From Brevibacillus laterosporus DSM 25 (GTDB lineage Bacteria > Bacillota > Bacilli > Brevibacillales > Brevibacillaceae): a stretch of 64,000 nt of DNA. Positions 1-28,369 of this stretch are shown one piece after another. The stretch is from positions 4,439,501 through 4,503,500 of the forward strand of contig NZ_CP017705.1 of the NCBI RefSeq assembly GCF_002706795.1, written 5' to 3'. The stretch's first letter is position 1; every line of letters starts with the position of its first letter. Under the pieces are notes generated by a model. It made no database searches. It was given only the letters and a program-made list of their open reading frames with translations, and was not told where the DNA came from. Position numbers and translations under genes: made by a program.

Positions 1-1
1 G

Positions 2-3000
2 GATAAAGAGAGGAAGGATGTTCTAGCTTATGTAGATCGTCCACTAATGGAGCTTGGCTTGGATTCAGGTGATTTACTAGAATTAAACGATCAGTTAGGT
101 ACAAGGTTTCAAATCGAACTTAAAACAACGTTCTTTTTTACATACAATACCGCTAGAAAAATTATTTCGTATCTCATAGAGAGCTTGGATGTAGTAGAAC
201 AAGTGTCTGTAGCAGAAGAATCTGTCTCAGAAAATGAAATAGTTGCAAGGACTAATCCTTATGTAGAAAAGGATGACATTGCAATTATCGGTGCTTCCTG
301 TCGTCTTCCAGGAGGGGTGAGCAATCTCGAAGAATTATGGGAATTATTAATTAACAACTGCAATGCTATTAGACCGATGCCTGAACATAGATGGGATTGG
401 CCCGATACAATTCATCCTGATTCAGAACATAAAGGGATAGATCAAGGTGGATTCCTAGATAATATTGCTGAATTTGATCCATTGTTTTTTAGAATTTCCC
501 CTACGGAGGCAGAGATTTTAGACCCTCAGCAACGCTTGCTCATGGAGTTAAGCTGGGAGTGTATAGAAGGAGCTAATTATTCTGCTACCGCCATTTCAGG
601 TAGTAATACAGGTGTATTTATTGGTGCGAGTGGCTCCGATTATAGTAAGCTCTTGGATCGTTACAGTGATGATGTTCAAGCTAAGTATGGAATAGGTACA
701 TCCATGGCGATTCTCCCTAATCGGATCTCATATTTTTATAACCTTCATGGTCCTAGTATTCAAATAGATACGGCTTGCTCAAGTTCTTTGGTTGCCGTTC
801 ATCAAGCTGTAAAATCTCTGCAAGCAGGAGAGTGTGAGCAGGCTTTAGTAGGCGGAGTTCATCTAATGTGTCATCCTGCTAACAGCATTGCTTACTATAA
901 AGCCGGAATGTTATCCAGAGATGGGAAATGTAAAACGTTTGATAAAGATGCCAATGGATATGTTCGTGGAGAAGGTGGAGTTGTATTACTGTTAAAACCT
1001 GTGAAACAGGCAAAGCTCGATGGCGATTCTATCATGGCTGTCATTAAAGGAACAGCTACTAATCATGGAGGGCAGGCAAACGGTTTAACTGTGCCGAATC
1101 CAGCGAAGCAAGCTACTTTAATCAAGGAGGCCTTCCGTTCAGCTGATATTGCACCCGAGTCAGTAGGTTATATGGAAGCCCATGGTACAGGTACTTCATT
1201 AGGTGACCCTATTGAGTTTGCAGCCTTGAAAGATGCGTTTTTAGAGCTTTCACAACAAGATGACAATAAATGGGAATCGTATTGTGGGTTAGGCTCTATT
1301 AAAACAAATATCGGACACTTGGAAGCTGCCGCAGGCTTGGCAGGCTTGGCTAAGGTTTTAGTAAGTTTACGTCATCGTATGATACCAGCATCCTTGCATT
1401 TTCAGGTATTAAACCCGCACATACCTATTGAAAATTCTCCATTTTATATCGTAAACAGTAATCAAGAGTGGATGCCACCTCATAGAGGAGGCTTACGCAG
1501 AGCGGGAGTTAGCAGTTTTGGTTCAGGTGGTTCAAATGCTCATATTGTGATTGAGGAATATCCCTCTACTGATAAGGTAGATACAAAAAGGGACACCAGT
1601 AGTAGCAATCCTGTCATGATCGTGTTGTCGGCAAAGAACGAGGAACGCTTAGAGGAGCATGTGAGGCAATTATTACAAGCAATCAAAAAGCAAAACCTGA
1701 CAGATTTTCATCTGAAAGATATGGCTTATACCCTACATGTAGGTAGAGAGGCGATGGAAGAGAGATTTGCTACCGTCATCAGTCATATTGAAGAATTAGA
1801 AAAATCATTACTCGATTACCTCGATAATAAAGGGACTCTGAAAAACAATTATCAAGGAAATGTGAATAAGAATAACTCGATTTCTAGTTTATCGATTGGA
1901 CATGAAGAAAAGAATGAGATGGTCAATCACTTTATTCATAATAATGATTTGCATCAACTTGCTTATTTATGGGTTTCGGGGCTAGATATCGATTGGCAGG
2001 AGCTGTACAGATCTGAGACAGATAATCGAAGAATTTCACTTCCAACCTACCCGTTTGCAAGAGAACATTATTGGTTATCAGAGATAGAATCCCGCACCCT
2101 CACCAGTAAGCCAAAGAAAATAACTTCAGGTACACAAAATGTGATTCATCCGCTATTACAGCAAAATACATCATATTTATCGACGACTCGATTTAGTTCC
2201 ACTTTTACAGGCAAAGAGTTATTTCTTAGAGATCATGTAGTGAATGGCTGTAAAGTTCTACCAGGTGTTGCCCATCTGGAAATGGCGCGTAAGGCTATGG
2301 AGCAAGTGCTGGAAGATAGGGGGGGTGATCACGGGGGTTTTCAGCTTCATAACGTAATTTGGAAGAAGCCCATCCTCCTAGAGGAGCAATCAAAACAAGT
2401 GCATGTACGAGTTTTTTCAGGAAATCATGATGAGATCAACTATGAGATTTACAGTGAGGAAATTCCAGGAAGCGACAACCCTATTGTGTATAGTCAAGGC
2501 GTAGCATTACGTTGGGAAGAAAAGAAAACATTACCCTTGGATGTCCCCACTTTACTATCCGAATGTAATCAACGTGTCCTGACAGGTAGAGAATGTTATC
2601 AAGCTTTTCATAAAGTGGGGATTGCTTATGGGAAAAGTCATCAGGGAATACAAAGTGTGCATGTAGGGAAGGATCAGGTACTGGCAGAGCTAGTCTTACC
2701 TTCTTACTCAGAGGATACTCAAGAACAATATGTCCTACATCCTAGTCTAATGGATGCTGCTTTGCAGGCATCGCTTGTATTTCAGATGCAATTGAATAAT
2801 ACCTTCAATACGTCTGTAAAGCCATCGTTACCTTTTGCTTTGGAGACGATGGAGATTATTCGACCGTATACACCCAAAATGTGGGCTCATGTACGTCATA
2901 GTGAAGATTATATCAGCGGGAATGAGACTCAGAAGTATGATATTGACCTTTGTGACGACAGGGGTACAGTTTGTGTACGAATGTCTGGATTCTCGTCTAG

Positions 3001-3028
3001 GGTATTAGAGGGGGGATATTTCGACTGA
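2..3028 (+). CDS. trans-AT polyketide synthase, ACP (partial)-KS-DH, 5' end outside the window
   Basis: The reading frame is already open at base 2 and runs into the window, so the N-terminus is missing. The first residues carry the carrier-protein motif GLDS, whose serine accepts phosphopantetheine. A ketosynthase follows, with DTACSSSL (Cys codon at 776), EAHGTGT and KTNIGHL, so the Cys-His-His triad is complete. After a linker ending in YPFAREHYW, a dehydratase shows HVVNGCKVLP (His codon at 2234) and a later DAALQ Asp motif. There is no acyltransferase after the KS, which marks a trans-AT system. The frame ends just after the typical post-DH sequence GFSSRVLEG, and the next KR lies one frame away. 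A one-base indel in the G6 run at 3010-3015 would fuse them. Confidence 0.95.
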   Translation, partial: DKERKDVLAYVDRPLMELGLDSGDLLELNDQLGTRFQIELKTTFFFTYNTARKIISYLIESLDVVEQVSVAEESVSENEIVARTNPYVEKDDIAIIGASCRLPGGVSNLEELWELLINNCNAIRPMPEHRWDWPDTIHPDSEHKGIDQGGFLDNIAEFDPLFFRISPTEAEILDPQQRLLMELSWECIEGANYSATAISGSNTGVFIGASGSDYSKLLDRYSDDVQAKYGIGTSMAILPNRISYFYNLHGPSIQIDTACSSSLVAVHQAVKSLQAGECEQALVGGVHLMCHPANSIAYYKAGMLSRDGKCKTFDKDANGYVRGEGGVVLLLKPVKQAKLDGDSIMAVIKGTATNHGGQANGLTVPNPAKQATLIKEAFRSADIAPESVGYMEAHGTGTSLGDPIEFAALKDAFLELSQQDDNKWESYCGLGSIKTNIGHLEAAAGLAGLAKVLVSLRHRMIPASLHFQVLNPHIPIENSPFYIVNSNQEWMPPHRGGLRRAGVSSFGSGGSNAHIVIEEYPSTDKVDTKRDTSSSNPVMIVLSAKNEERLEEHVRQLLQAIKKQNLTDFHLKDMAYTLHVGREAMEERFATVISHIEELEKSLLDYLDNKGTLKNNYQGNVNKNNSISSLSIGHEEKNEMVNHFIHNNDLHQLAYLWVSGLDIDWQELYRSETDNRRISLPTYPFAREHYWLSEIESRTLTSKPKKITSGTQNVIHPLLQQNTSYLSTTRFSSTFTGKELFLRDHVVNGCKVLPGVAHLEMARKAMEQVLEDRGGDHGGFQLHNVIWKKPILLEEQSKQVHVRVFSGNHDEINYEIYSEEIPGSDNPIVYSQGVALRWEEKKTLPLDVPTLLSECNQRVLTGRECYQAFHKVGIAYGKSHQGIQSVHVGKDQVLAELVLPSYSEDTQEQYVLHPSLMDAALQASLVFQMQLNNTFNTSVKPSLPFALETMEIIRPYTPKMWAHVRHSEDYISGNETQKYDIDLCDDRGTVCVRMSGFSSRVLEGGYFD

Positions 3029-3035
3029 TTGCTCT

Positions 3036-4463
3036 ATGGATTCTACGTCGAGAGAAGCTATAATCACACCTCCATTTGAACCCATGCTGGTATCCCCTAT
3101 TTGGGAAGTAATTCCTCATGAAACAGGACAAAGGATTCCTTCAATTGATGACAACCTCGTCATAGTTGGAGGCAATGAAACAAATTGGAGTGATATCCGA
3201 AAACAGTACCCCCATGCTCGTGTGCTACCTATTCATAGTGGGAATACGGTCGAGGAAATCATCCGAGAATTGAGACAGCATGCCCCAATCGACCATATTT
3301 TATGGATCGCACCAGAGGAGCACAATTCATCGATAACAGACGATGCCATTATCGAGGGGCAAGAAGCAGGTGTGATCTATTTATTTAAAATCATCAAAAG
3401 TCTGCTTGCTCTTGGATACGATAGCAGACCAATAGGCTGGACTGTCATTACCATACAAGCTCAGCCGATTCATAAATACGATGAAGTAAATCCGACCCAT
3501 GCCAGTATTCATGGATTAATGGGGACGTTGGCAAAGGAATATAGTCATTGGAAAATCCGAGTCATTGATCTGGAGTCAGCAGCTACCTGGCCCATGCCGG
3601 AGCTATTCACCCTACCAAGTCATGAAGAAGGAAACGCTTACGTCTATCGAGAACAGCAATGGCATCATCAAGAGCTGGTTCCTGTACGTTATAACAAGCA
3701 GGATGAGACGCTGTATAAGAACGGTGGCGTGTATGTGGTGATTGGCGGAGCTGGGGGAATTGGCGAAGTATGGAGTGAATATGTGATTCGAATGTACGAA
3801 GCCAAGGTGATTTGGATCGGAAGAAGAGAAAAGGATGCCAATATTCAAGCAAAAATAGATCGACTAGCATCGATAGGCCCCACACCGAGCTATATCGTGG
3901 CAGATGCAACAGATCAAGAAGAGCTGTACCGAGCCTACGAAGAAATCAAACAGCAATATGGTCACATACATGGCATCGTACATTCTGCCATCGTTTTGCT
4001 GGATAAAAGTCTAGCAAATATGGATGAGGAAAGATTCCGGGCGGGACTCCGTGTCAAGGTAGATGTGAGTGTGAATATAGCAGAAGTATTTGAGCAGGAG
4101 CCGCTTGATTTTGTTTTATTTTTCTCCTCGATGAATTCGTTTGTAAAAGCAGCGGGACAAAGCAACTATGTAGCAGGATGTACGTTTAAAGATGCTTTTG
4201 CAAGCCAGCTCGCTCTGGAGTGGCCGTGTGCCGTGAAAGTTATGAACTGGGGGTACTGGGGAACGGTAGGCACAGTGGCATCCGAAGAATATCAAAGACG
4301 GATGCATAATAGAGGAGTTGGTTCGATTGAACCTCCAGAGGCAATGGAAGCATTAGAAGCTCTCTTGATAGGACCGATGAACCAATTAGCGTTTGCAAAA
4401 ATGACTTCATCCTCTGCTTGGGTTAATGTCAATCGAAGAAAATGTATTACCATTTATCAATAA
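3036..4463 (+). CDS. PKS ketoreductase domain protein, probably the out-of-frame continuation of the preceding gene
   Basis: This encodes one ketoreductase: a structural subdomain, then a catalytic Rossmann part with GGAGGIG for NADPH and SSMNSF plus QSNY for the catalytic Ser and Tyr. The residue four after that Tyr is Cys (YVAGC), where canonical PKS KRs have Asn. The start at 3036 has no good ribosome site; the nearest G-rich stretch is about 20 bases upstream, inside the previous gene. The frame is open back to 3009, so the KR probably belongs to the preceding KS-DH protein, split by an indel in the G6 run at 3010-3015. From about base 3152 it is nearly identical in DNA to the KR at 9202-10462. 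The following protein starts with the methyltransferase of the same module. Confidence 0.8.
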   Translation: MDSTSREAIITPPFEPMLVSPIWEVIPHETGQRIPSIDDNLVIVGGNETNWSDIRKQYPHARVLPIHSGNTVEEIIRELRQHAPIDHILWIAPEEHNSSITDDAIIEGQEAGVIYLFKIIKSLLALGYDSRPIGWTVITIQAQPIHKYDEVNPTHASIHGLMGTLAKEYSHWKIRVIDLESAATWPMPELFTLPSHEEGNAYVYREQQWHHQELVPVRYNKQDETLYKNGGVYVVIGGAGGIGEVWSEYVIRMYEAKVIWIGRREKDANIQAKIDRLASIGPTPSYIVADATDQEELYRAYEEIKQQYGHIHGIVHSAIVLLDKSLANMDEERFRAGLRVKVDVSVNIAEVFEQEPLDFVLFFSSMNSFVKAAGQSNYVAGCTFKDAFASQLALEWPCAVKVMNWGYWGTVGTVASEEYQRRMHNRGVGSIEPPEAMEALEALLIGPMNQLAFAKMTSSSAWVNVNRRKCITIYQ

Positions 4464-4507
4464 AAAAATTCGTATTCGTCAGAAATCAATCATTGGAGAG
4501 ATAAAAC

Positions 4508-7500
4508 ATGAGAAATGATGACCAATTCATTTATGTGACTAAGCAATTGGACGATATGGATAAGCTTCTAGTCAAGTTATTGTGGGACCAATGTAGAGGG
4601 ATGGGAATGTTTATATCTAACACCTTCGATCCAGCAACTGTCATAACAAGAATGGGAATCATCGATTTATATGAAAAATGGGTAGATGAGACGATCGCTA
4701 TATTCATAGAGTATGGTTATTTGTCATTTGACAAAGAAATGTGTACGGTCATGAAAAACCCTTCTATTGAATTGACCGACTCGTGGAAAGAGTGGGAACA
4801 GCGAAAGAAGGAATGGCTAGGAGATGCTAACCTAAAATCTCAGGTCGTATTGGTAGAGACGATGCTAGGTGCGCTACCTGAGATACTCACAGGAATACAA
4901 CCTGCCACTGATGTAATGTTTCCCCAGTCATCTATGATTTTAGTGGAAGGGGTATATAAACATAATCTACTTGCAGATCACTTTAATGAAGTACTTTCTG
5001 AAAAAATAGTTGCTTTTATGCAGGAGCGTAGTAATCAAAGCACGATTGCAAGTAAACCAATCCGAATTTTAGAGATTGGAGCAGGTACGGGAGGAACCAG
5101 TGCTAGCGTTCTTCCCAAGATAAAGCCTTATCAGAAGTATATCGAGGAATATTGCTATACGGATCTTTCGTTAGCTTTTCTTAGACATGGAGAGAAGGAA
5201 TATGGACCAGATTATCCATTTTTAACCTATAAGATTTTTAATATTGAACAACCTGTTGCCAATCAGGACATTGAACCGAATAGCTATGATCTGGTCATTG
5301 CGACAAATGTAGTGCATGCTACGAAAAATATACGACATACGCTACGTAATGTGAAAGCTACAATGAAAAATAATGGTTTATTGCTATTAAATGAAATAGC
5401 AGATCGTTCAGTGTTTACACATCTTACCTTTGGTTTTTTACAAGGCTGGTGGATGTATGAAGATACGGCACTACGTATTCCAGGTTGTCCAGGATTATAT
5501 CCAGATAGCTGGAAAAAGGTATTAAAAACGGAAGGGTTCCATTCTATTTCCTTCCCAGTAAATGAAAAAAACGACTATAAGCAACAGATTATCTGTGCAA
5601 AAAGTGATGGAGTCACCATGCAATTGCAAGACCCTGTTCCTACTGCATCGACACTAGACTATAACAATAGACAAGACGAGAGTGATACACAATTTGCACA
5701 TAAGGAACGTCATCAAAAGTCGTCTTCAATGGAGAATCCTGAGGACAGGATGGAGCACATCAATGTTACAGATCAAATGATCGAGGAACATCTTATACAG
5801 ATAATCAGAGAAAGTATTTGTGAAGAATTGAAGATCAGTGAAGCAATGATTCAAAACGATCGGAGTTTTTCGGAGTATGGTGTAGATTCAATTATCGGTA
5901 TTCAACTCATTCAACTCATTAATAAAAGATGCCATACAAGGCTACAAACGACTGTTGTGTTTGACTACAATAACGTGAATCAATTGGTTCATTACATGAT
6001 TAGGGAATATAGATCGACTATAGTAGCTTTATTGGAAGAAAAAACACCTGTAGAAGTTGCAAGTTCAAAGTGGAGTAAAGTAGAGGCCATGCAAAACGGT
6101 CAACGAAAAGTGAAAGCTTCTAGCGAAAAAAATATCAAAAAAAGCGACTCTTTAAAAGTAGCAGTTGATCAATCAGATGTACATTCACCCATTATAAAGG
6201 AACGATCGATGTTTCATAGAGTACTAATTGAATCCCCAGGGAGTACAGATGATATTCAGATAGTAGAGTCCGACATTCTCGAATTAAAAGCAGATGAAGT
6301 GAGAATTTCAGTTCGTGCTTTTTCCTTAAATTTTGGAGATTTATTATGTTTGCAAGGCTTATATCCGACTATGCCCCCATACCCATTTACTCCTGGATTT
6401 GAGTCTAGTGGTGTAGTAGTAGAAGTGGGGAATGCAGTAAGCTCAATCCGTCCTGGAGATGAGGTTGTTTATTGCGGGGGAGAACATTTGGCAGGGCAGG
6501 CCAGCTTACTTACCTGTAAGGCAGCCGATGTTTTTCCTAAGCCTTCTTCGTTGTCCTTTGAAGAAGCTTGCTCTTTACCCATTGTATCGATGACGGTTAT
6601 AGCTGCTTTTCGGAAAGCACAAGTAAAGAAGGGCGAAAAAATCCTTATTCAAACAGCAACCGGCGGAGTTGGACTTATTGCTGTCCAGCTAGCCAAGTAT
6701 TATGGAGCTGAAATTTATGCTACTGCAGGTTCTGAGCACAAGCTAGAGTATGTAAGACAAATTGGCGTGTCACATGCTATCAATTACATTGATTCTGATT
6801 TTGAGCAAGAAATCTATCGACTGACGGATGGTAAAGGCGTTGATGTCGTCATCAATACGTTAGCAGGAGATGCCATTCAAAAAGGGTTTGGATGTCTAGC
6901 AAGAGGTGGTAGATACATTGAAATTGCGATGACAGCACTTAAAAGCGCCAGGACAATTGATTTATCCATTTTAAACAACAACCAGTCTTTTTATAGCATT
7001 GATCTGAGAAAATTGGGTTTGGAACAACCTAATGTACTACGAGGTTATCGAAAAGAGATGCTTCGATTAATAAAGGAAAATGTGATTCAGCCGACTATCT
7101 ATAAAGTATTTTTATTTGATGACATTAAAGAAGCGTATCAATGCATGGAAAATCGAGAAAATATCGGAAAAATAGTCGTACAGATCCCAGAACGATATCA
7201 ATATAAAGTAGCCCCAGCTATCCAAAAAGAACCTATTGCGATCATTGGGATGAGCGGAAGATTTGCGAAGTCAAGAACAGTCCATGAGTTATGGGAGCAT
7301 CTATCAAAGGGCAATGACCTAGTGGAAGAAGTATCGCGTTGGGATCTGTCACAGTATTACAAAGAAGGCACATCTTATTGTAATCAGGGCAGTTTTGTTG
7401 AGCACATCGATCAATTTGATCCGCTTTTCTTTAATATTTCAGGTGCTGAGGCGATTTATATGGATCCGCAGCAACGAATCTTTTTAGAGGAATCCTGGAA

Positions 7501-10510: not shown

Positions 10511-10577
10511 TAAAATTACTCTAATGTAAAACGAAGGGTTTCTTACTTATAGAATCTAGATGTGTGGAGAGATGAAC

Positions 10578-19500: not shown

Positions 19501-20930
19501 TAGCTTGTCATTTTCCAGATGCAAGGAATGCACGAGAATATTGGGCAAATCTAAAGATAGGCAAGGACAGTATTCGAGAAATACCAAAATCGCGTTGGGA
19601 TATTGAAAAGCTCTACACTTCAAACGAATACACGGAAGGAAAAAGCATAAGTAAATGGGGGGGCTTCTTAGATTCAATTGAAGATTTTGATCCTGATTAT
19701 TTCCATATACCAGAACCCTTAGCCTACCAAATTGATCCGCTTCAACGACAACTGTTAGAGGTGAGTGCAGAAGCGATCCTTGATGCAGGATATAAGGAAA
19801 AAGACCTGTGGAATAAACAGGTTGGGGTTTTTGTAGGCTCCCGAGCTAGCACTTTTTCGCAAAAGCTAGAACAAAGCACTAAGGATACCATCGTTGGGAC
19901 AGGGCAAAATTTCATTGCAGCGCATTTAGCTCATGTATACAACTTTAAAGGGCCTAACATGGTGATTGATACGGCTTGCTCTAGCTCGCTAACAGCCATT
20001 CATCTAGCTGTTAGAAGCATTCAAAATGGAGAAAGCGAACTTGCTTTAGCAGGGGGAGTAGATATCCTATTAGATGAATCACCGTATGTTGCAATGAGCG
20101 CAGCTAATGTATTATCGCGGGATGGGCGTTGTAAAACCTTTAGCGCTGAAGCTAATGGAATAGGCCTCGGCGAAGGATGTGGAGTCCTTATTTTAAAGCC
20201 TCTACAACAAGCAATTCGGGATCAAAACAAAATTTATGGCGTGATTGAGGGATCATCGATTAATAATGATGGGAACACAATGGGAATTACCACTCCGAAT
20301 CCAGAGGCGCAGAGGGAGTTAATTGAAAAAGCGATTGTAGACGCAAAAATAAACCCAGAAACAATAAGTTATGTGGAAACACACGGAACTGGCACTTTGA
20401 TTGGTGATCCAATTGAATTGAAAGCTTTGACCCAAGTATGTAAGAAACACACCTTACAAAAACAATATTGCGGTGTGGGCAGTGTAAAAAGTAATATCGG
20501 ACATTTGATGAGTGCAGCTGGAGTAGCCAGTTTTATTAAGGTATTGCTATCGCTTGTTCATGAGGAGCTTCCTGCGACATTGCATTGTGAACATCCTAAT
20601 CCGCGTTTTCATTTTGAAGAATCACCATTTTTTATTGTGCAAGAGCCAATGAAATGGGTGAGTAAATATGCTGTTTTACGAGCAGGAATTAGTGCGTTTG
20701 GATTGGGCGGAAACAATGCTCATATTATTGTGAGTAATGAAGGAATCCCTCTAACACATCGAGTACCTCTGGAAAGTATAAATCCAAACATTTCATTCCA
20801 AAGAAAAAGGTACTGGCCAGAAGGAAAGCAAGATTCAACTAAACTACAGAAACGAGAACAAGATAACAGAAGAACCGCAGAAAACCTTGCTTATTATGAG
20901 CCGATTCGAGTTGAGCATAGGGGAGAATAA
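10578..20930 (+). CDS. trans-AT polyketide synthase, cMT-ACP-KS-KR-ACP-KS-KR-ACP-KS
   Basis: Start ATG 10578 lies six bases after GGAGAG; ATGs at 10560 and 10572 are in frame but badly placed. Domains in order are: C-methyltransferase (LEIGAGTGGTSA, about residue 185), ACP (YGVDSI, 440), KS1 (DTACSSSL, 694), KR1 (GGAGGLG, 1316; SSMSG, ADYAMGN), ACP (YGIDSL, 1613), KS2 (DTMCSSSL, 1892), KR2 (GGTRGLG, 2562; SSVSA, SDYAMAN), ACP (YGMDSI, 2877), and KS3 (DTACSSSL, 3131). Every KS has the Cys-His-His set, and KR1 and KR2 keep Ser, Tyr and Asn. There is no AT, DH or ER. The N-terminal cMT-ACP serves the KS-KR of the preceding protein, and the C-terminal KS works with the DH-ACP-ACP-KR-TE of the next. 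The stop is five bases before the next start, so the two are translationally linked. Confidence 0.95.
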   Translation: MQAYKRNEIYEEKKQMEIMNELLMKLLLAQLSSMGLISSNSLSRFQAQTKLPDFYNKWLEVSLDFLEQEHYIKQVGETFHLCDQTLIAQELLWEEWDSKKHEWLEDSNTKAKVMLVETMLRALPDILNGTSKATEIMFPHSSMQLVEGIYKHNKIADYFNNVLAQTVISYVQEQIDRNSNAKIRILEIGAGTGGTSATVLQKLTPYHDHIQEYCYTDISKAFLMHGAREYGPSNPFLTYKMLNINESIMKQNIDIGTYDVVIAANVLHATPNIHQTIRHAKALLKRNGIIVINEITEKTLFNHLTFGLLEGWWLYEDTALRIPGCPGLCAKGWKKVLTVEGFTSVLFPAIDAEELGQQIFVAKSDGLIRHKQDIQKQPSNDQKRDERKHVTSNQQILASTDQQGIEPKMLDYVMNMIIQKISESLLVDIQMINYHESFSDYGVDSITGVKLVQVINQAMNITLDTTTLFDYSSVNLLASHIISEYRKTIMQQLFQNVEQNVPPIMTLTKESKNQEGITSQPTLLDRIESTIGVEKNKTDIAIIGMSGRFAKSETVYELWEHLAGGNDLVGEVSRWDLSRYDKQGMSFPQQGSFVDDIDRFDPLFFNISGSEAEYMDPQQRIFLEETWKALEDAGYAGAGVQGKKCGIYVGCGANDYQQLLGHNPPPQAFWGTANSIIPARIAYYLNLQGPAIAVDTACSSSLVAIHLACQGLWTKETEMALAGGVFIQSTPGIYQFTNRAGMLSPTGRCYTFDERADGFVLGEGAGVVVLKRLSDAIADGDHIYGVIRGSAINQDGTTNGITAPSAKSQERLEREVYDTFHIDPQHIQMVEAHGTGTKLGDPIEYKALTRAFSNYTNEKNYCAIGSIKSNIGHLTFAAGVAGLIKILLSLQQKQIPPTLHYEKGNTNINFEDSPFYVNTKLTEWSVEPNMKRCAAISSFGFSGTNAHMVIEEAPYVEKASEPKPGYLITLSARTQDQLHQQVKRLIQYCEHKDKIDYGNMSYTLLMGRKHCNHRLACVVHEQNELVDALKKWIEKGEASEVYASVLDKKEQQEQIAMKQYGNEYIRKLTIETDGSAYIGHLSTLAALYTQGYELEFDQMFLQNHYSRISLPTYPFAKERYWIPEEDDQSDNRKHIGKITLEPVWKEQEITQRERVPNYHQHIVMLCEPFVHVRDQLVAQTNGITFISLHSENTRLEQRFESYAVQAFETVQQIVQSKPEGNVLIQIVGSYQGEQQVFSGLVGLLQTARLENPKIIGQMIEVEQGIKQTELIEKIRNNKQCPEDRHIRYEQESRWVACWNEREGVAEADKIPWKDHGVYLITGGAGGLGRIFAKEIVQKSKNVTVILTGRSELREEKTARLRELQSVGARVIYRQIDITKKDEVEQVVKQIQEEFGSLNGIIHSAGIIQDNYILKKNTAEVINVLSPKVAGTIYLDEATKDIPLDFFLLFSSMSGAIGNPGQADYAMGNAFIDYYAEYRNQLADANERKGLTFSINWPLWKEGGMHVPLETEKMLLKNTGMIGIDTKTGIENIYQMFTARKNRLVLMEGDLPKLRAYFLTKQVKKMEPSIEQSVLQIDKAIVEERTQTKLKTLLGEQLKISVDQIDASETLDQYGIDSLVIIELNQKLEGIFGECSKTIFYEYQTVEEVTKYFTLHHLEQCMEWTGLAQEMSVDAKISVLNHSVEKELPSQISSKGTKRSPSHVDVPMEQKPEPQTQTLLEPIAIIGMSGHYPQANTLQQYWNNLAQGKDCIVEIPEERWSTENFYDANRKNAFAKGKSYSKWGGFLQDFASFDPLFFSISPREAINMDPQERLFIQTCWEVLEDAGYTREQLAMRHKGRVGVFAGITKTGFQLYGPQLWEEGEELFPYTSFSSIANRVSYLLNLKGPSMPIDTMCSSSLTAIHEACEHIRHGACEMAIVGGVNLYVHPSNYIQLCGQQMLSAEGKCKSFGQAADGFVPGEGVGAFLLKPLSKALEDGDQVHALIRATSINHGGKTNGYTVPNPVAQGELVREAMEKAGINARTISYIEAHGTGTELGDPIEITGLHQAFSKDTQDTNFCAIGSVKSNIGHLEAAAGIAGLTKIILQMKNQKLVPSLHAKELNPNINFAKTPFTVQQELSEWLRPVIEINGVTTECPRIAGISSFGAGGANAHVIVEEFIPSKVAQSTSPHQNNPVILVLSAKNEDCLQEQVNQLLVALQEKSYTDRDLQKMAYTLQVGREAMEERLGMIVESIDDLEEKLKGYRNKQANLENVYQGKVKQNKETVSIFLQDEELQEAIQKWIKRKKYAKLLRLWVKGLQIDWNELYGENKPQKMSLPTYPFTKEQYWISPSRNSSTSTFVNALNESSHHSKLKSRTDCIVKKYWKLANVNKAKELHGTIAILTTNETEPLAKRISERMRNTKIMKMYEIPAQLSHSQEEWKKYAGIIDLAGCGSKDQTDTSWIFTLQTLIGIGKKENVMLLCVTKGLEAFKNGSINVAGATRVGLYRTLQSEYSYVCSRHMDVERHLEDHVLAEQIIEELFAESQDVEVCYRDGQRYRAYLDVVQDEIDTISQKQVFPSSHVLWITGGTRGLGLLCAKHFVENYGAKRIVLTGRESLPSREEWDLYKEHHSSTAQKIRAIEQLESLGAEIQVFSLALSDEEEVRKCVEQVKLSMGSIGGVIHCAGSVDMENPAFIRKSYETINQVMEPKIQGLRVLYRVLKEEPLQFFVLFSSVSAIVPSLGAGQSDYAMANAYMDYFSESVAHSCPIVSIQWPSWKETGMGEVKSSSYEQSGMLSMTNKEGLSFLDRILAKKLGPVVLPAIIQAPIWKPEMLMQSKRKAGVAGVQHAHMRLEVVNHGEVVHDELMEKTQSWLLALFSKELMLDSSLVDADSLFQEYGMDSILLAQIITKMDRELKIVALDPSILLEHPSIGRLTTYLIETYPDVLESLFSIEEKKTSRKAIIENDHNTVSEVPHANKEHEHQLNGQDKIAVIGIACHFPDARNAREYWANLKIGKDSIREIPKSRWDIEKLYTSNEYTEGKSISKWGGFLDSIEDFDPDYFHIPEPLAYQIDPLQRQLLEVSAEAILDAGYKEKDLWNKQVGVFVGSRASTFSQKLEQSTKDTIVGTGQNFIAAHLAHVYNFKGPNMVIDTACSSSLTAIHLAVRSIQNGESELALAGGVDILLDESPYVAMSAANVLSRDGRCKTFSAEANGIGLGEGCGVLILKPLQQAIRDQNKIYGVIEGSSINNDGNTMGITTPNPEAQRELIEKAIVDAKINPETISYVETHGTGTLIGDPIELKALTQVCKKHTLQKQYCGVGSVKSNIGHLMSAAGVASFIKVLLSLVHEELPATLHCEHPNPRFHFEESPFFIVQEPMKWVSKYAVLRAGISAFGLGGNNAHIIVSNEGIPLTHRVPLESINPNISFQRKRYWPEGKQDSTKLQKREQDNRRTAENLAYYEPIRVEHRGE

Positions 20931-20935
20931 ATGAC

Positions 20936-23900
20936 ATGAATCAAACACAAACACAGGAGACTTTTTTACAGCGATTATATCATAGTCACTATTTAGTACA
21001 GGATCACCGTGTTCATGGCGTTTGTGCTGTTCCAGGTTTAGCTCTAATGGATATGATTTATCGTGTAGCTGCTATTTATTTAGATAAACAGCCAATTGAG
21101 TTGAGACAGGTCTTGTTCAAACAGCCCATAGTGACATCTGAACATTTTGATAAAAATATTTATGTTACGTTTTCACCTTTGGATTTTTACTGGAAAGTAA
21201 CGATTACCAGTCAGAAAATAAAAGATGATGTGGTTATTGATCAGCAAATGGAAGTGAATATGGAATGCTTCTTGTATGTCATGACAGATGGAAATAACCC
21301 CCAAACACTTGATGTACAATCCTTTATGAGTCAATCAAACAAGCAGTGGAATATGGATCAAATGTATGATTTAGTGCGAAAAACAAAAATTCACCATGGT
21401 ACATTCATGAAAACGGAAGGTACAGTGTATCAATGGGGGCATAAGGAATTAATGGAGCTTAAGCTCAGTAGCCTAGCAGAATCCTACCTAGATAAATTTT
21501 ATGCCCATGCCGCTTTTTTAGATGGATCATGTTTATCTGGAGCATCTTTTATGGTCACCGGCATGCAATACAATATTTTTCAGGAGAATACGCCTTATAT
21601 TCCATTTATACTTGAACGGTTTTGTATCTATAAGCCTCTTCCCAACAAGGTTTATACGTATACAGAGCAAACCGCAACTCATGGAAAGATATCAACTGCG
21701 CCAGATGTTGTGTCTCGTGATATTACTATTTTTAATGAAGGGGGTGATGTACTTGTCGAATATAATAGATTTACTGTAAAACGAGTTAGGGAACCACATC
21801 TCATAAAAAAATTAATCGAAACGCAACCCATTCATACCGATACAGCTCGTCCAATTGAGCGTTCACACGAGCAGATTGAGGTAATCCAGCAAGAGGAGAT
21901 CATCCACCAAGGAAGAGATAGTCCGCACCTAGCCTCTATTCAAATGTACTTGAAACAAGAAATAGCAAACGTATTGAAAATAAATCCAAATAACGTGCAA
22001 ACGAACACAGGCTTTTATGAGCTGGGACTAGATTCTACACAATTGCTAGCACTTGTAAAGGTCTTGGAGAGCCAAGTAAAGACAGCACTGTATCCAACAC
22101 TGTTATTCGAATACTCGACTGTGGAAAGCTTATCTCAATATTTGCTCGACCATTTTGAACAGGCTTTTGTAACAGAACCTAGTACAAATAAACCTTATCA
22201 ATCACGGGTGGATTTGATTCATTCATACCTACAACAAGAAATTGCCTCTGTATTAAAAACAAATCCTACAGACATCCAGTTGCATACAGGCTTTTATGAA
22301 TTGGGATTAGACTCCACACATTTAATAAGCTTTGTTAAAGTCCTAGAGAAAAAAGTAGATGCACCCCTGTATCCAACACTGTTATTTGAATATTCAACTG
22401 TCGCTAGTCTATCTGAATATTTGCTAGAAAACTGGGGGGCATCTTTTTTAGCTGGCACTGGTATAGATACAGAAGTAACAGCTGTGTCGTCTGTGACGAG
22501 CAAGCTACAAGACAAGCAAGCTACTGTGCTTTATTTTGAACGATTCTGGGAAAAGCTTGGGCTGAAGAAAAATAAACCTGCCGAGATGAGCCGCCAGCAT
22601 ATTGTACTCCTCTTTCATGATCCTATGGACTTACAAGCTGAATTGAAACGGCAATTGTATGTAGAGACAGTGTTGGTTTTGAAATCAGATAAGGTGGAGA
22701 GTGTCGATCAATTTGAAGACAAATGCAAGCAATGTTTAGGACACATTCAAGCACTGTTACAGAGCAAACCTGCAACGGAATTTCTGCTTCAGATTGTAAC
22801 CGGTTCAAGTGAGCAAGATAAATACGCTAATGCTTTAGAAGGAATGCTTAGGACAGCTTACCTAGAGCAACCAAAAATACACAGCCAGATGATACATATT
22901 GAGCATCTGATTGAAACCCCTACACATGAAATCGCTGCCTTGCTTGAAAAAGAGACACGTTGTCATGAGAAAGGGATGGCCAGCATTCAGTATCGAGGTA
23001 AGGACTTCGTTCGGTATGTTCATCAGCTAAAAGAAATGAATACCACAGGTAACCGCCTTCCTCATTCTGTAAAGGAGCATGGTGTATACGTAATTACGGG
23101 CGGTCTAGGTGGCTTAGGATATTTGATTGCAAGTCATCTTGCGAAGCAGGCGAATTGTAAGCTGGCTTTATTAGGACGTTCTAAGCTGGATGAGAAGAAA
23201 CAGCAACAAGTATATCGCTTACTGGAAATGGGAGCGGATGTACGTTATCTGGAGGTTGACTTATGTGAGAGCACAGAAACAGTTCAAGCTTTTCAGTCCA
23301 TTAGAGAAGAGTTAGGACCGATCACAGGTATTTTCCATTGTGCTGGTGTGATTAAAGACCGATTGCTCATTCACAAAACTACCAGTGAATTACAAGCTGT
23401 GCTGTCACCTAAATGGAGAGGGACGTGGAATCTAGATCAGGCCACTCAGGATGATGAACTGGAATTTTTCGTTCTCTTTTCATCCGTTTCAGCCATTATG
23501 GGAAATGTAGGTCAGGCTGATTATGCTTGCGCCAACGCAGCTATGGATTTATTTGCTTTCGAACGGCAAGAACAGGTAAACATCGGCAAGAGATGTGGTC
23601 AAACCGTTACGGTTAACTGGCCACTCTGGGCAGATGGGGGTATGCGGCTCGAAGAAGACTTGTTACAAATGACTACCGCTTCGACAGGGCTGTCTGTATT
23701 GCCAAGTGAAGAAGGATTAGCAGCATTGGATCATTTATTATCACAAAAAAGCACTCAAAGCATCGTGTTATATGGTGAGGAACGTACCATTAGGAACCAG
23801 ATACAAAAGCTGAACGCAGTAAGGAGAGAACAAGAGGATGAAACGGCTAGTACAATAACGAGAATTTGCTTAGATCATTTTACTTTTCCTGAAGATCTGA

Positions 23901-24739
23901 AAACGTATTGGAGCAACATAAAGGCTGGACAACGAATCATTAGACATAAATCGAATGTGGACGAGGTTCGGTCATGGATGGAACAGGGAAACGATATACA
24001 GCATTTACTCATTCGTACCCAAACCTCAAGGCAGATTGAAGTTGTTATCTGTGGAAAAGGCAAAAAAATTGTTCTATTATTCTGCGGTTTCGGTTTAACC
24101 GCCTCCCAATGGTACTACCAAATTAAGGAGTTAAGAGAGGACTATCAATTCATTATTATCCACCCGCCAGGGGTAGGATTAAGTGAAGATAATGGGGATC
24201 TTTCTTTTCAGGGTATTTCCAATACGGTACATGAAGTATTAGATATCCTACAAATCTCTTTACCTCTTTATGTGATAGGAACTTCTTGGGGAGGAATGAT
24301 TGCCCAAACCTTTGTAGCAAATTTCCCAGAAAAGGTTGTTTCCTTAACACTAGTAACAAGTTTCTGTGACATGAACCAATTATGGGATGAACAATCCTTA
24401 AAAGATGCATTCAAACTTGATTATTATGTTAATTATCGACAAGGTGCGTATGAGTTGATTCAAGATAGCGAATTTGTAAATCCTGTTGTCCTACAATATA
24501 ACGATATTGAAAAACAAGGTAAATTGAATACACACGGTATCCTAGAAAATATTTCTGTACCAACATTAATCGTGTCAGCTAAAAAAGACATCATGGGCTT
24601 TTATTATCAAACGAATCAATTAGTAACGAAAATACCACGTGCTACATTAGTCGAGATAAACGGTGGTCATGGATGCAATATCACTCATTATGAGGAGTTT
24701 AATCGCATTTTGCACCATTATTTACAAGAACAAGAATAG
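20936..24739 (+). CDS. terminal trans-AT PKS protein, DH-ACP-ACP-KR-TE
   Basis: The N-terminal dehydratase has HRVHGVCAVP and a LDGSCLSG Asp motif. Two tandem ACPs follow (each with YELGLDST; about nt 21941-22160 and 22210-22430), near-duplicates of each other. Then comes a ketoreductase with GGLGGLG, FSSVSA and ADYACAN, with Ser, Tyr and Asn present. The C-terminus is an alpha/beta-hydrolase thioesterase with GTSWGG (nucleophile Ser about residue 1117), a later Asp in SAKKD and His in GGHGC. It receives the chain from the KS ending the previous protein, reduces and dehydrates it, and releases it. The order with KR after the ACP pair is unusual, although trans-AT systems often rearrange. An ATG at 20931 runs straight into a stop, so ATG 20936 is the start. 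Confidence 0.93.
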   Translation: MNQTQTQETFLQRLYHSHYLVQDHRVHGVCAVPGLALMDMIYRVAAIYLDKQPIELRQVLFKQPIVTSEHFDKNIYVTFSPLDFYWKVTITSQKIKDDVVIDQQMEVNMECFLYVMTDGNNPQTLDVQSFMSQSNKQWNMDQMYDLVRKTKIHHGTFMKTEGTVYQWGHKELMELKLSSLAESYLDKFYAHAAFLDGSCLSGASFMVTGMQYNIFQENTPYIPFILERFCIYKPLPNKVYTYTEQTATHGKISTAPDVVSRDITIFNEGGDVLVEYNRFTVKRVREPHLIKKLIETQPIHTDTARPIERSHEQIEVIQQEEIIHQGRDSPHLASIQMYLKQEIANVLKINPNNVQTNTGFYELGLDSTQLLALVKVLESQVKTALYPTLLFEYSTVESLSQYLLDHFEQAFVTEPSTNKPYQSRVDLIHSYLQQEIASVLKTNPTDIQLHTGFYELGLDSTHLISFVKVLEKKVDAPLYPTLLFEYSTVASLSEYLLENWGASFLAGTGIDTEVTAVSSVTSKLQDKQATVLYFERFWEKLGLKKNKPAEMSRQHIVLLFHDPMDLQAELKRQLYVETVLVLKSDKVESVDQFEDKCKQCLGHIQALLQSKPATEFLLQIVTGSSEQDKYANALEGMLRTAYLEQPKIHSQMIHIEHLIETPTHEIAALLEKETRCHEKGMASIQYRGKDFVRYVHQLKEMNTTGNRLPHSVKEHGVYVITGGLGGLGYLIASHLAKQANCKLALLGRSKLDEKKQQQVYRLLEMGADVRYLEVDLCESTETVQAFQSIREELGPITGIFHCAGVIKDRLLIHKTTSELQAVLSPKWRGTWNLDQATQDDELEFFVLFSSVSAIMGNVGQADYACANAAMDLFAFERQEQVNIGKRCGQTVTVNWPLWADGGMRLEEDLLQMTTASTGLSVLPSEEGLAALDHLLSQKSTQSIVLYGEERTIRNQIQKLNAVRREQEDETASTITRICLDHFTFPEDLKTYWSNIKAGQRIIRHKSNVDEVRSWMEQGNDIQHLLIRTQTSRQIEVVICGKGKKIVLLFCGFGLTASQWYYQIKELREDYQFIIIHPPGVGLSEDNGDLSFQGISNTVHEVLDILQISLPLYVIGTSWGGMIAQTFVANFPEKVVSLTLVTSFCDMNQLWDEQSLKDAFKLDYYVNYRQGAYELIQDSEFVNPVVLQYNDIEKQGKLNTHGILENISVPTLIVSAKKDIMGFYYQTNQLVTKIPRATLVEINGGHGCNITHYEEFNRILHHYLQEQE

Positions 24740-24742
24740 GGG

Positions 24743-26122
24743 ATGGTTACATTGGTGAAAAAAACTGTGGTTAAAACGTATCCTTTATCAAAAGTGCAGA
24801 GTGTTTTTTATCAACATTATGCCTTGCTTCCTGATTCCTATGGAAACAACGAAAAAGTGCTTTATCGTATACATTCTCAGATAAATATAGATGTAATGAG
24901 GGAAGCCTTCTTACAAGTGATCAAGCGACATGAGATGTACCGCACCAATTTTATTATGGAAGATGAGCCGGTACATCAAGTGTACGAAGAAGCGATTTTG
25001 GATTTTGAGGTGGTGGATGCTAGCAACTGGCCGGAAGAGGCAGTAGCACAGTTTTTGAGTGAAGAAACCTATCGTCCCTTTCAGTTAGAAGAAAACCCTC
25101 CCTTTCGAATTAGATTGTTCCGATTTTCAGATGATGATTTTATTTTACTTTTAGTGTGGCATCATGTTGCGGTAGATGGATGGTCGGCTTCTCTTACAAT
25201 CGATGATTTTGGATTATTATACAAGAATTTATTGGAAGAAAATGACTTTGAACTTACTCCGATCAGAAGACAGTTTTCAGACTTTGTGGTAGCGCAAAAC
25301 GAAATGCTAGAAAGTTCAGAAGGACAAAAACAGCGTTTATTTTGGAAAGAAAAGCTATCAGGGGAGCTACCTGTTCTGAAGCTTCCGGCTGATCGAGATT
25401 TTCCTGAGATTCGGACCTATAAAGGAGGAACTGTATCGTTTCGCCTTGAGAAAACATTGAGCGATAACGTTTTTACTTATTGTCAACAAAAAGATACCAC
25501 TCTGGATCGGGTTCTTCTGTCTCTATACTTTGCTTTTTTACATGGTTATTCACAGCAGGAAGAAATCGTAATTGGAACACCTAGATATGGGCGTGCATCG
25601 ACAAGTTATTATAATACGTGTGGAGTTTTTATCAACTTGGTCCCATTGCGAATGAAAATGCCAAAAGATGCAACATATGCTGAGCTGGTACGTTTTGTTG
25701 ATGAACAAATTAATCAGTGTCTTGACTATCAAGATTTTCCTATGACACTTATGATGGAGGATCAGGATATAAAAACCGGTCTAACACCTCTGTTCCAAAC
25801 TTGCTTCTCCATTCAAAAGTGGCCTAGGCAAAACACGACGTTTCATTTTGGGGATTCCACACATGAGATCAACTTACATGGATTACAAATGAATCACTAC
25901 TATACAGAAAAGAAAATTTCCAAATTTGATCTTGCTCTGTATGTGGAGGAAGATCGGAAGAATGGGATTTTACCCATATTTGAATACAATGCCGATATTT
26001 TTGATAAAGAAACGATAGAGAAGGTAAGTCGTATTTTCATGAAATTCATTACGACTGTCATTGATGATGATCAGGTGAAAATTTCCACCTTATGTTCATT
26101 CCTTCAAGCGATTGAGAGATAG
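24743..26122 (+). CDS. free-standing condensation-domain acyltransferase
   Basis: This 459-residue protein is a single NRPS-type condensation domain with an intact HHVAVDG active site (residues about 140-146) and no adenylation, carrier or thioesterase part. Stand-alone C domains of this type can form esters as well as amides. Here, between a PKS terminal protein and an ammonia-lyase, the likely job is moving an aryl-acyl group such as cinnamoyl onto a hydroxyl of the polyketide; that role is inferred from context. The ATG at 24743 directly abuts the AGGGG ribosome site, so the in-frame TTG at 24752 may be the real start. It follows the PKS stop by three bases and is part of the same operon. 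Confidence 0.85.
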   Translation: MVTLVKKTVVKTYPLSKVQSVFYQHYALLPDSYGNNEKVLYRIHSQINIDVMREAFLQVIKRHEMYRTNFIMEDEPVHQVYEEAILDFEVVDASNWPEEAVAQFLSEETYRPFQLEENPPFRIRLFRFSDDDFILLLVWHHVAVDGWSASLTIDDFGLLYKNLLEENDFELTPIRRQFSDFVVAQNEMLESSEGQKQRLFWKEKLSGELPVLKLPADRDFPEIRTYKGGTVSFRLEKTLSDNVFTYCQQKDTTLDRVLLSLYFAFLHGYSQQEEIVIGTPRYGRASTSYYNTCGVFINLVPLRMKMPKDATYAELVRFVDEQINQCLDYQDFPMTLMMEDQDIKTGLTPLFQTCFSIQKWPRQNTTFHFGDSTHEINLHGLQMNHYYTEKKISKFDLALYVEEDRKNGILPIFEYNADIFDKETIEKVSRIFMKFITTVIDDDQVKISTLCSFLQAIER

Positions 26123-26160
26123 ATGAGGAAGCATACGCACATAGAGAGGATAGGTTGAAA

Positions 26161-27819
26161 ATGAGTCAAACAACCCTTTTAGAAATAGATCAAAAACAGC
26201 ATAATCAACAAAAAATTACATTAACAGGTAACGATTTGACCATAGCAGATGTTGCTCATGTAGCAAAAGGTGCCTCTGAATCATCTACTTTCCTCATTTC
26301 AGAAGAAGCCATAAAGCGAATTGAAGAATGCAATGAATTAAAACATGAAATTATTAATAAACAGTATCCCATATATGGTGTTACGACTGGCTTTGGCGAC
26401 AGTGTGCACAGACAAATTTCTGGTGAGAAAACCTGGGATTTACAACGAAATTTAATCAGATTCCTATCGTGCGGAGTTGGTCCAATAGCAGATGAGGTTG
26501 TGGCAAGGGCAACTATGCTCATACGCACGAATTGCTTGGTGAAAGGTAATTCAGCTGTACGGATGGATGTGATTCATCAATTAATAGCCTATATGGAACG
26601 AGGACTTACTCCAATTATTCCTGAGCGTGGCTCAGTTGGAGCGAGTGGTGATTTAGTTCCATTAAGCTATATTGCCTCTATACTAGTTGGAGAAGGAAAA
26701 GTCCTGTATAAAGGGAAGGAGTGCGAGGTAGCGGAAGCACTGGAAGCTGAGGGACTTATGCCTTTAACATTGGAAGCCAAGGAAGGACTTGCTTTAGTAA
26801 ACGGGACCTCTTTTATGTCTGCCTTTGCTTGTTTAGCTTACTCGGATGCAGAAGAAATCGCATTCATAGCCGATATTTGTACGGCTATGGCTTCAGAAGC
26901 ATTGCTAGGGAACCGGGGACATTTTTATTCATTCATTCATGAACAAAAACCGCACCTAGGTCAAATGGCAAGTGCAAAAAATATTTACACCATGCTAGAA
27001 GGCTCTCAATTATCCAAAGAATATTCGCAAATTGTAGGGAATAATGAAAAGTTGGATTCGAAAGCTTATTTGGAATTAACAGAGAGTATCCAAGATCGTT
27101 ATTCAATCCGCTGCGCACCTCATGTTACGGGCGTACTGTATGACACATTAGATTGGGTGAAAAAGTGGCTAGAGGTAGAAATTAATTCAACGAACGATAA
27201 CCCGATCTTTGATGTGAAGACGCGTGAAGTTTACAATGGTGGAAATTTTTATGGCGGTCATGTCGTACAAGCTATGGATTCGTTAAAAGTAGCGGTTGCC
27301 AATATTGCAGATTTGCTAGATCGACAATTGCAACTGGTGGTCGATGAAAAGTTTAATAAGAATTTGACCCCAAATTTAATTCAGCGTTTTAACAGTGATC
27401 ATTATGAATTAGGGTTGCATCATGGATTTAAAGGGATGCAAATTGCAAGTTCTGCCCTAACAGCTGAAGCTTTGAAAATGAGCAATCCAGTCAGTGTGTT
27501 TTCACGTTCTACTGAGGCTCACAATCAAGATAAAGTGAGTATGGGTACAATTTCATCACGTGATGCACGTACAATTGTAGAATTGACTCAACATGTAGCG
27601 GCGATTCATCTCATTGCACTTTGTCAGGCGTTAGATTTACGAGGCACGAAAAAAATGTCACCAAAAACCACAAAGATTTATAACATGATTCGAATGCAGG
27701 TGCCTTTTGTGGAACGTGATAGAGCATTAGATGGAGACATTGAGAAAGTTGTTCAGCTTATCCGCTCTGGAAATCTAAAAAAAGAAATTCAAGATCAAAA
27801 TGTAACCTCACTTGAATAA
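26161..27819 (+). CDS. MIO-type aromatic amino acid ammonia-lyase, probably phenylalanine ammonia-lyase
   Basis: The protein (552 residues) belongs to the histidine/phenylalanine ammonia-lyase family. It has the Ala-Ser-Gly triad that cyclises to the MIO cofactor (GSVGASGDL, about residues 157-165) and the catalytic-Tyr loop YGVTTGFG. The selectivity position reads IRFLSCGVG (Phe-Leu at about 101-102), which is the phenylalanine type; histidine lyases usually have Ser-His and tyrosine lyases His-Leu. The expected reaction is L-Phe to trans-cinnamate plus ammonia. An aminomutase cannot be excluded, since the folds are shared. ATG 26161 is ten bases after AGAGGA; an in-frame TTG at 26155 sits too close. 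It closes the PKS operon, with a terminator about 65 bases downstream, and probably supplies cinnamate to the neighbouring condensation protein. Confidence 0.9.
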   Translation: MSQTTLLEIDQKQHNQQKITLTGNDLTIADVAHVAKGASESSTFLISEEAIKRIEECNELKHEIINKQYPIYGVTTGFGDSVHRQISGEKTWDLQRNLIRFLSCGVGPIADEVVARATMLIRTNCLVKGNSAVRMDVIHQLIAYMERGLTPIIPERGSVGASGDLVPLSYIASILVGEGKVLYKGKECEVAEALEAEGLMPLTLEAKEGLALVNGTSFMSAFACLAYSDAEEIAFIADICTAMASEALLGNRGHFYSFIHEQKPHLGQMASAKNIYTMLEGSQLSKEYSQIVGNNEKLDSKAYLELTESIQDRYSIRCAPHVTGVLYDTLDWVKKWLEVEINSTNDNPIFDVKTREVYNGGNFYGGHVVQAMDSLKVAVANIADLLDRQLQLVVDEKFNKNLTPNLIQRFNSDHYELGLHHGFKGMQIASSALTAEALKMSNPVSVFSRSTEAHNQDKVSMGTISSRDARTIVELTQHVAAIHLIALCQALDLRGTKKMSPKTTKIYNMIRMQVPFVERDRALDGDIEKVVQLIRSGNLKKEIQDQNVTSLE

Positions 27820-28003: not shown

Positions 28004-28369
28004 ATGTTCAGGCATATTTCAACAGTTGGCGTATACGTGGAAGACCAACAAAAAGCATTAGCCTTCTGGACAGAGAAAGTGGGATTTACCGTGTATGCTA
28101 ACTTTCCTATGGGACCTAAAGCGACATGGATGGAAGTAGGACCAGAAAATGCCCAGACACGTCTCGTTCTTTATCCAAAAGCAATGATGAAAAACTGGGC
28201 AGAATTAAAACCCTCCATCGTGTTTGAGTGTGATGATATTTATAAATTGTGTGAAGACCTGCAAGCAAAAGGAGTAGACGTTGACAAACCGAATGAAATG
28301 GAATTTGGTATCTTTGGTTTTTTCAGAGACGAGGATGGCAATCAATTCGGTTTAAAGCAGCCAAAATAA
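28004..28369 (+). CDS. VOC-superfamily (glyoxalase/dioxygenase-like) protein
   Basis: This 121-residue protein has the paired beta-alpha-beta-beta-beta pattern of the vicinal-oxygen-chelate superfamily: HISTVGVYVEDQQKALAFW at the start, and RDEDGNQFGLKQ, typical of the last strands, at the end. Members bind a divalent metal and include glyoxalases, dioxygenases and antibiotic-binding proteins; the substrate here cannot be told. The start ATG follows AGGTGA. It has its own terminator, so it is a single-gene unit between the PKS operon and the sugar operon. Confidence 0.85.
   Translation: MFRHISTVGVYVEDQQKALAFWTEKVGFTVYANFPMGPKATWMEVGPENAQTRLVLYPKAMMKNWAELKPSIVFECDDIYKLCEDLQAKGVDVDKPNEMEFGIFGFFRDEDGNQFGLKQPK

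Follow-up and report, generated by a model that had tools for sequence, protein, structure and literature searches.

The stretch of DNA analysed here (the window, 64,000 nucleotides) spans positions 4439501 to 4503500 of the 5.40-Mb single-contig genome of Brevibacillus laterosporus DSM 25. It contains the right three quarters, from the 3′ part of PKS1 to an ammonia-lyase gene, of a trans-acyltransferase (trans-AT) polyketide synthase (PKS) cluster of 11 open reading frames (ORFs) at genome positions 4430125 to 4467319. We consider it very probable that this is a basiliskamide-type cluster that follows the pathway proposed below. The cluster begins about 9.4 kb before the window, base 1 of which lies inside PKS1, and encodes in order an AMP-binding ligase, a carrier protein, an asparagine (Asn)-synthetase-type amidotransferase, an AT-AT-PfaD protein, PKS1, a ketoreductase (KR) ORF, PKS2, PKS3, PKS4, a condensation (C) protein and a 4-methylideneimidazole-5-one (MIO) lyase. 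An earlier note on the window (the original prediction) had described its genes as lying on one strand with tight spacing, and this holds for the whole cluster, with all 11 ORFs on the plus strand and gaps of 3 to 72 bp between neighbours.

The region upstream of the window, whose examination the original prediction had proposed, was found to encode the stand-alone ligase (genome 4430125–4431600), which has AMP-ligase core motifs, followed by the stand-alone carrier protein, the amidotransferase, the AT-AT-PfaD protein (4433865–4437197) and a putatively GNAT-type loading region at the start of PKS1. With a separate AT protein and no AT in the modules, the system is a trans-AT PKS; the five ketosynthase (KS) domains without AT that had been predicted are distributed as one in PKS1, one in PKS2 and three in PKS3, and Pfam detected no AT in PKS1 to PKS4. 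The AT-AT protein is fused to a PfaD-family enoylreductase-like domain, though PKS2 also has a cis enoylreductase (ER).

PKS1 starts at genome position 4437237, and its 3′ part occupies positions 1–3028 of the window. Its NH2-terminus contains AprA-like N-terminal, winged-helix and MT2 methyltransferase (MT) domains (Pfam AprA_N, WH_AprA and Methyltransf_36), a GNAT-position stretch and an acyl carrier protein domain (ACP; PP-binding), followed by KS1 (272–1402) and a dehydratase, DH1 (PS-DH, about 2147–3010), both with their motifs. The stretch between MT2 and ACP gave no Pfam GNAT match at an E value of 0.001, and the GNAT is placed there by position only. The module-1 KR (Pfam KR) forms a separate ORF at 3036–4463, where two congeners have one ORF. 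On the basis of Pfam matches and motifs, PKS2 (4508–10510) carries MT-ACP-ER, which completes module 1, and KS2-KR2 of module 2, whereas PKS3 (10560–20930) carries the MT-ACP end of module 2, KS3-KR3-ACP (module 3), KS4-KR4-ACP (module 4) and KS5. PKS4 (20936–24739) contributes DH5-ACP-ACP-KR5 of module 5, so that the last two modules have the previously described organization of KS-KR-ACP and KS/DH-ACP-ACP-KR. A COOH-terminal α/β-hydrolase, a thioesterase (TE) that was absent from the original prediction, follows the last module and has a GTSWG motif and a later His. All five KS domains retain the Cys, the His of HGTGT and the His of the third motif, with KS4 having DTMCSS, and both DH domains retain HxxxGxxxxP. 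Among the elongation modules, MT domains are present only in modules 1 and 2, with none detected by Pfam in module 3.

The free-standing C protein (24743–26122; Pfam Condensation, E = 8e-93), with HHVAVDG at residue 140, ends 32 bp before the MIO lyase (26155–27819; PF00221, E = 3e-168), which has Ala-Ser-Gly at residue 163 and the selectivity pair F103-L104. Both genes are thus as they had been described from the window. The combination of the MIO Ala-Ser-Gly with a Phe-Leu pair is that of a phenylalanine ammonia-lyase (PAL), and the single other PF00221 match in the genome has Ser-His, as in histidine ammonia-lyase (HAL). The best NCBIfam model for the lyase was that for the tyrosine ammonia-lyases BagA/FevW (743 bits, cut-off 1000); its score lies below the cut-off, and the window lyase differs in having a Phe-type pair. 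The phe_am_lyase model gave 399.5 bits and did not reach its cut-off of 519.15. We base the assignment of the enzyme as a probable PAL on its motif, together with the assay that others have published for a B. laterosporus PAL (see below).

The C protein contains the HHxxxDG motif expected of an ester-forming C enzyme and is putatively an ester synthase for cinnamate. It shares with enzymes similar to SgcC5, which we take to be a free-standing ester-forming condensation enzyme, its stand-alone form, this motif and the presence of a ligase and a carrier in the cluster; this likeness is one of features, the Protein Data Bank (PDB) sequence matches of the C protein being mostly labelled as nonribosomal peptide synthetase (NRPS) proteins. 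In amino acid-activating A domains, a conserved Asp binds the amino group of the substrate. Tyr206 of the ligase aligned with this position in both A-domain alignments with LgrA, and an amino acid is therefore unlikely to be its substrate.

To arrive at a product, we infer the substrates, the order of steps, the ester step and the compound made by this strain from gene content. The putative GNAT-type region would load acetate. All five KS domains have intact motifs and so look able to elongate, and five elongations, for which the AT-AT-PfaD protein would supply AT activity and perhaps also ER activity, would give a C12 chain. Module 1 (KS-DH-KR-MT-ACP-ER) is predicted to install the 10-methyl group and a reduced C11, module 2 (KS-KR-MT-ACP) the 9-oxygen and 8-methyl group, and module 3 (KS-KR-ACP) the 7-oxygen; the restriction of MT domains to elongation modules 1 and 2 predicts two chain methyls, at C10 and C8. 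Modules 4 (KS-KR-ACP) and 5 (KS-DH-ACP-ACP-KR) together have two KRs and one DH and would form the 2,4-diene, the single DH probably serving both. The Asn-synthetase-type protein would form the primary amide. PAL would supply cinnamate, which the ligase would load onto the stand-alone carrier protein and the C protein would transfer to the C9 or C7 hydroxyl.

The chain predicted from the module order is thus a C12 dienamide that carries two methyls and two oxygens, as in basiliskamide, and the cluster has the amide-forming gene and the A and C genes of a basiliskamide cluster. The carbon skeleton is 21-membered in both basiliskamide A and basiliskamide B, the only difference between them being the position of the ester, at C9 in A and at C7 in B (PMC5100339); the 12 chain carbons and 9 cinnamoyl carbons predicted here sum to this printed size. 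A free C protein acting as ester synthase would bear on why both isomers occur. By our own arithmetic from the module logic, including the two methyls, the formula is C23H31NO4, which we take to be that of basiliskamide A. The original prediction of a cinnamoyl-ester polyketide cluster of the basiliskamide kind is thus supported, with module count, methylation pattern, diene logic, amidotransferase, ligase/carrier pair, C protein and Phe-type lyase all fitting. Its naming of basiliskamides and YM-47522 in one breath was loose, given that a review assigns the latter (spelled YM-45722 there) one methylene more (PMC10669366).

The core of this assignment is already known, both the basiliskamide cluster and the link to PAL being in print. 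In 2014, basiliskamides were obtained from B. laterosporus PE36, and a trans-AT cluster (cluster 12) with A and C genes was hypothesized to make them, with installation of cinnamate being attributed to an A domain (PMC3940840). Compared by text description, that cluster shares with the present one the trans-AT PKS, fused tandem AT, the KS-KR-ACP-KS-DH-ACP-KR arrangement, the A and C genes and an amide-forming gene; its GNAT loading has a counterpart here by position only. The descriptions differ in that the available PE36 text names no ammonia-lyase, whereas an MIO lyase adjoins the C gene here; in that the amide gene is called an aminotransferase there and is of the Asn-synthetase amidotransferase type here; and in that the AT protein, given there as a fused tandem AT, here also carries a PfaD-type ER (PMC3940840). 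A PAL of B. laterosporus (BlPAL) was cloned and assayed in 2017 and, in the text available, acts on Phe with no significant activity on Tyr or His; it was putatively linked to the cinnamate of basiliskamide, a link missing from earlier hypotheses (PMC5651878). BlPAL as described there has in common with the window lyase the Phe-Leu motif, the likeness to BagA and the polyketide gene context (PMC5651878), and we assume on the basis of organism group, motif and context that the two are orthologous. According to the accessible parts of other papers, the B. laterosporus strains studied in one survey, with the exception of DSM25, carry a cluster of high similarity to the basiliskamide cluster (PMC6978878), and strains of B. 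laterosporus and B. halotolerans have been placed in a producer clade (PMC10753013).

What we add to these reports is a fuller gene assignment, with a likely ligase/carrier pair for cinnamate, an Asn-synthetase-type amidotransferase and a free C protein as a sharper, testable candidate for the ester step, together with the frame change and the KR blocks described below. Searches by topic found no paper on trans-AT, phenylalanine ammonia-lyase and Brevibacillus, nor on PAL, condensation domain, cinnamoyl and polyketide. The ligase, carrier, C protein and PAL were not found described as one cinnamoylation unit in the available main-text literature; figures and supplements were outside this scope, and no claim is made that the unit is unpublished.

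Several observations weigh against the proposed pathway. Every NCBIfam model listed for the C protein (six models) and the lyase (eight models) scored below its cut-off, as did the ligase in all 25 of its 105 NCBIfam models that were inspected. The relatives found for the C protein are ordinary NRPS C domains, so that ester formation is unreadable from its sequence. Likeness to the PE36 cluster and to BlPAL is based on published descriptions, and the product of this strain on inference. An active AprA-like MT in the loading region would alter the starter, and an acetate starter presupposes that this MT is inactive or has another function. Finally, a frame change near position 3010, if real, could disable module 1 in this strain.

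Other roles for the C protein and the lyase were also considered. The available text of one paper assigns the condensation domain of basiliskamide to product release (PMC8739492), and the C protein might thus be a chain-release catalyst rather than a cinnamoyl transferase. We regard this as quite unlikely, given that PKS4 ends in a TE of its own, that the C protein is free-standing and immediately precedes the lyase gene, and that the cluster includes a stand-alone ligase and carrier, which need a partner acyltransferase. PAL-derived cinnamoyl starter units exist in other pathways, and cinnamate could in principle prime the PKS with no aryl ester being made. The AprA-like-MT/GNAT-position/ACP loading region of PKS1 is, however, fused directly to KS1, and the ligase and its carrier are separate proteins; we therefore rejected this possibility, which the original prediction had set against an ester, as exceedingly improbable. 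An MIO enzyme might instead be an aminomutase whose β-phenylalanine is then attached. The best PDB sequence matches of the lyase are labelled tyrosine aminomutase, with AdmH, presumably also an aminomutase, close behind, and the NCBIfam models for Tyr (408 bits) and D-β-Phe (403 bits) aminomutases score slightly above phe_am_lyase. This explanation is nonetheless disfavoured, and appears highly improbable, because the best NCBIfam model is that of the lyases BagA/FevW, because the ligase lacks the amino-binding Asp and because the B. laterosporus enzyme is reported as a PAL without tyrosine ammonia-lyase or HAL activity, no aminomutase test being seen in the available text of that report (PMC5651878).

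The frame change raises a separate question about the product. In both congeners, PKS1 and the KR are one ORF of 2239 amino acids. Relative to either congener, the window contains one additional base at a G run (3010–3015), which is also interrupted by an A in the congeners, with the consequence that the PKS1 frame ends at 3028 and the KR ORF opens at an ATG at 3036; the KR is a separate ORF only because of this change. Either a genuine mutation or a homopolymer error could account for the extra base, both being compatible with the assembly. With the KR in a frame other than that of PKS1, the strain might make a different or shortened product, or the cluster might be silent. Such an outcome seems unlikely to us, given that the other motifs inspected are intact, that the KR ORF is open and 84.6–85.5% identical to the KR of the congeners, and that an additional base in a run of G is a frequent sequencing error.

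Self-comparison of the cluster revealed that the KR block of module 1 (3120–4432) and that of module 2 (9172–10482) are 97.0% identical in DNA over 1313 positions. The corresponding pair is 95.1% identical over 1364 positions in one cluster-bearing congener (G029) and 98.9% over 1304 in the other, B. laterosporus MSSRFCCT15 (G030). We analysed a gap-free block of 1260 columns with both copies from the three genomes. Within-genome identity of KR1 and KR2 in this block was 98.1% for DSM 25, 97.3% for G029 and 99.6% for G030, whereas copies from the same module were 84.05–84.44% identical between DSM 25 and the other two genomes and 93.2–93.3% between G029 and G030. The two copies agreed within every genome while the genomes differed at 196 columns, and no column grouped the copies by module. 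In the tree of the block, all three inner branches paired or separated the copies by genome, with support of 100/99–100. Constraining the copies by module lowered the log-likelihood by 608 and was rejected by the approximately unbiased (AU) test; the two AU tests performed represent the same split seen from either side, with p values (2.6e-62 and 7.1e-7) that differ by resampling and are descriptive, the split having been chosen after the data had been viewed.

The homogenised region has sharp edges. In a longer alignment, 44 columns grouped by module, every one of them outside the block, and within-genome KR identity dropped to 28–62% in the end windows. A first FastTree of the whole KR alignment with flanks paired the DSM 25 copies but placed KR2 of G029 with that of G030; this partly module-wise result is ascribed to the flanks, the block-only tree pairing all three by genome. 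As controls, KS2 and KS3 were 75.8% identical within the window versus 87.8–88.7% to their counterparts, with no grouping by genome, and the MTs of these first two modules were 68.9% identical to each other over 264 bases versus 82.6–89.9% to their counterparts. The KR blocks, and not KS2/KS3, thus have the hallmark of concerted evolution, paralogs grouping by genome rather than by position. Among the KR domains compared by blastn (16 of 20 matches in DSM 25 and 9 of 14 in G029), only KR1 and KR2 aligned over 60% of the query; of the nine left out (four and five, respectively), two were in frames of 1555 amino acids and seven in frames of 247–259.

These patterns suggest, with a likelihood that we judge to be high, that repeated gene conversion, acting independently in each of three species-level lineages, has kept the module-1 and module-2 KR blocks near-identical without homogenising the adjacent KS and MT regions. 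Gene conversion after an old duplication explains the pattern, separate duplications with the same edges in each lineage being a less simple account. Misassembly is unlikely as a cause for DSM 25 (one contig) and G029 (three contigs), and G030 (about 80 contigs) is weaker evidence. This would be a natural and probably continuing exchange of KRs between two modules that have different jobs. Concerted evolution has been reported for KS, AT, A and C domains of several PKS and NRPS families, with none in the trans-AT systems for pederin and psymberin (PMC4256081). In the families that do show it, as with the KR blocks here, paralogous domains resemble one another within a cluster more closely than they resemble their positional counterparts in sister clusters; KRs are not discussed in the available text, which does not mention "KR domain" or "ketoreductase" (PMC4256081). 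Another paper, in its accessible part, sets trans-AT PKSs apart from cis-AT PKSs, which undergo duplication and gene conversion, and describes the exchange of module blocks as the main route of innovation in the trans-AT class (PMC7930024). At the level of titles, literature on PKS ketoreductase gene conversion or trans-AT concerted evolution yielded none on this KR case. The blocks would mark the edges of natural KR exchange in a trans-AT assembly line, and for evolution and engineering they matter more than the gene assignment does.

All 11 proteins are kept, in unchanged order, in both cluster-bearing congeners at 78–92% identity, with the C protein at 88–90%. Counting the DSM 25 genome in each case, the ligase at E values up to 1e-100 was found in three of the five genomes of the genus sample (the window's own and four others), the lyase at E values up to 1e-150 in three of 39 genomes of the order search, each of them a member of the genus, and the C protein at an identity of at least 88% in three of 39 genomes of the family search. 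At high identity, the ligase, C protein and lyase co-occur in the same three of five genus genomes. Weaker C-domain matches (E values up to 0.001) were present in 27 of the 39 genomes of the family search, because NRPSs are common. Among seven loci with lyase relatives, PKS3, PKS4 and the C protein lie beside the lyase in one (L008), which is from MSSRFCCT15, the same genome as G030. The other six (L009 to L014), in Longirhabdus and actinobacterial records, have lyases of 56–70% identity, and tblastn at 1e-8 detected relatives of neither PKS3, PKS4 nor the C protein in the DNA examined (flanks short in L010 and L011), giving weak ligase matches in L010 and L012 and a weak PKS2 match in L012. 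A shared lyase-C-PKS sub-cluster was thus not seen in the examined DNA of these six loci, whose lyases have other neighbours. Pfam analysis of nine neighbouring ORFs from five of the six loci (none from L014) identified an amidase, an AraC regulator, an AMP ligase, a thiolase, an HpaB-type hydroxylase and an anthranilate-synthase-like protein, three of the nine being without a match; the AMP ligase and thiolase adjoin the lyase relative in L010, and the hydroxylase that in L011.

The ligase is flanked on its left by a tyrosyl-tRNA synthetase gene and an ORF for which C5-epim_C was a weak match. To the right of the lyase are a glyoxalase-like ORF and sorbitol phosphotransferase system genes. 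The former, a glyoxalase/bleomycin-resistance-like ORF at 28004–28369, follows the lyase, and both congeners have an ORF of equal length at this position with DNA 89–90% identical to it. Farther upstream of the window, the minus strand encodes a collagen-triple-helix-repeat ORF of 2049 amino acids (genome 4395496–4401645), which was scanned in two pieces.

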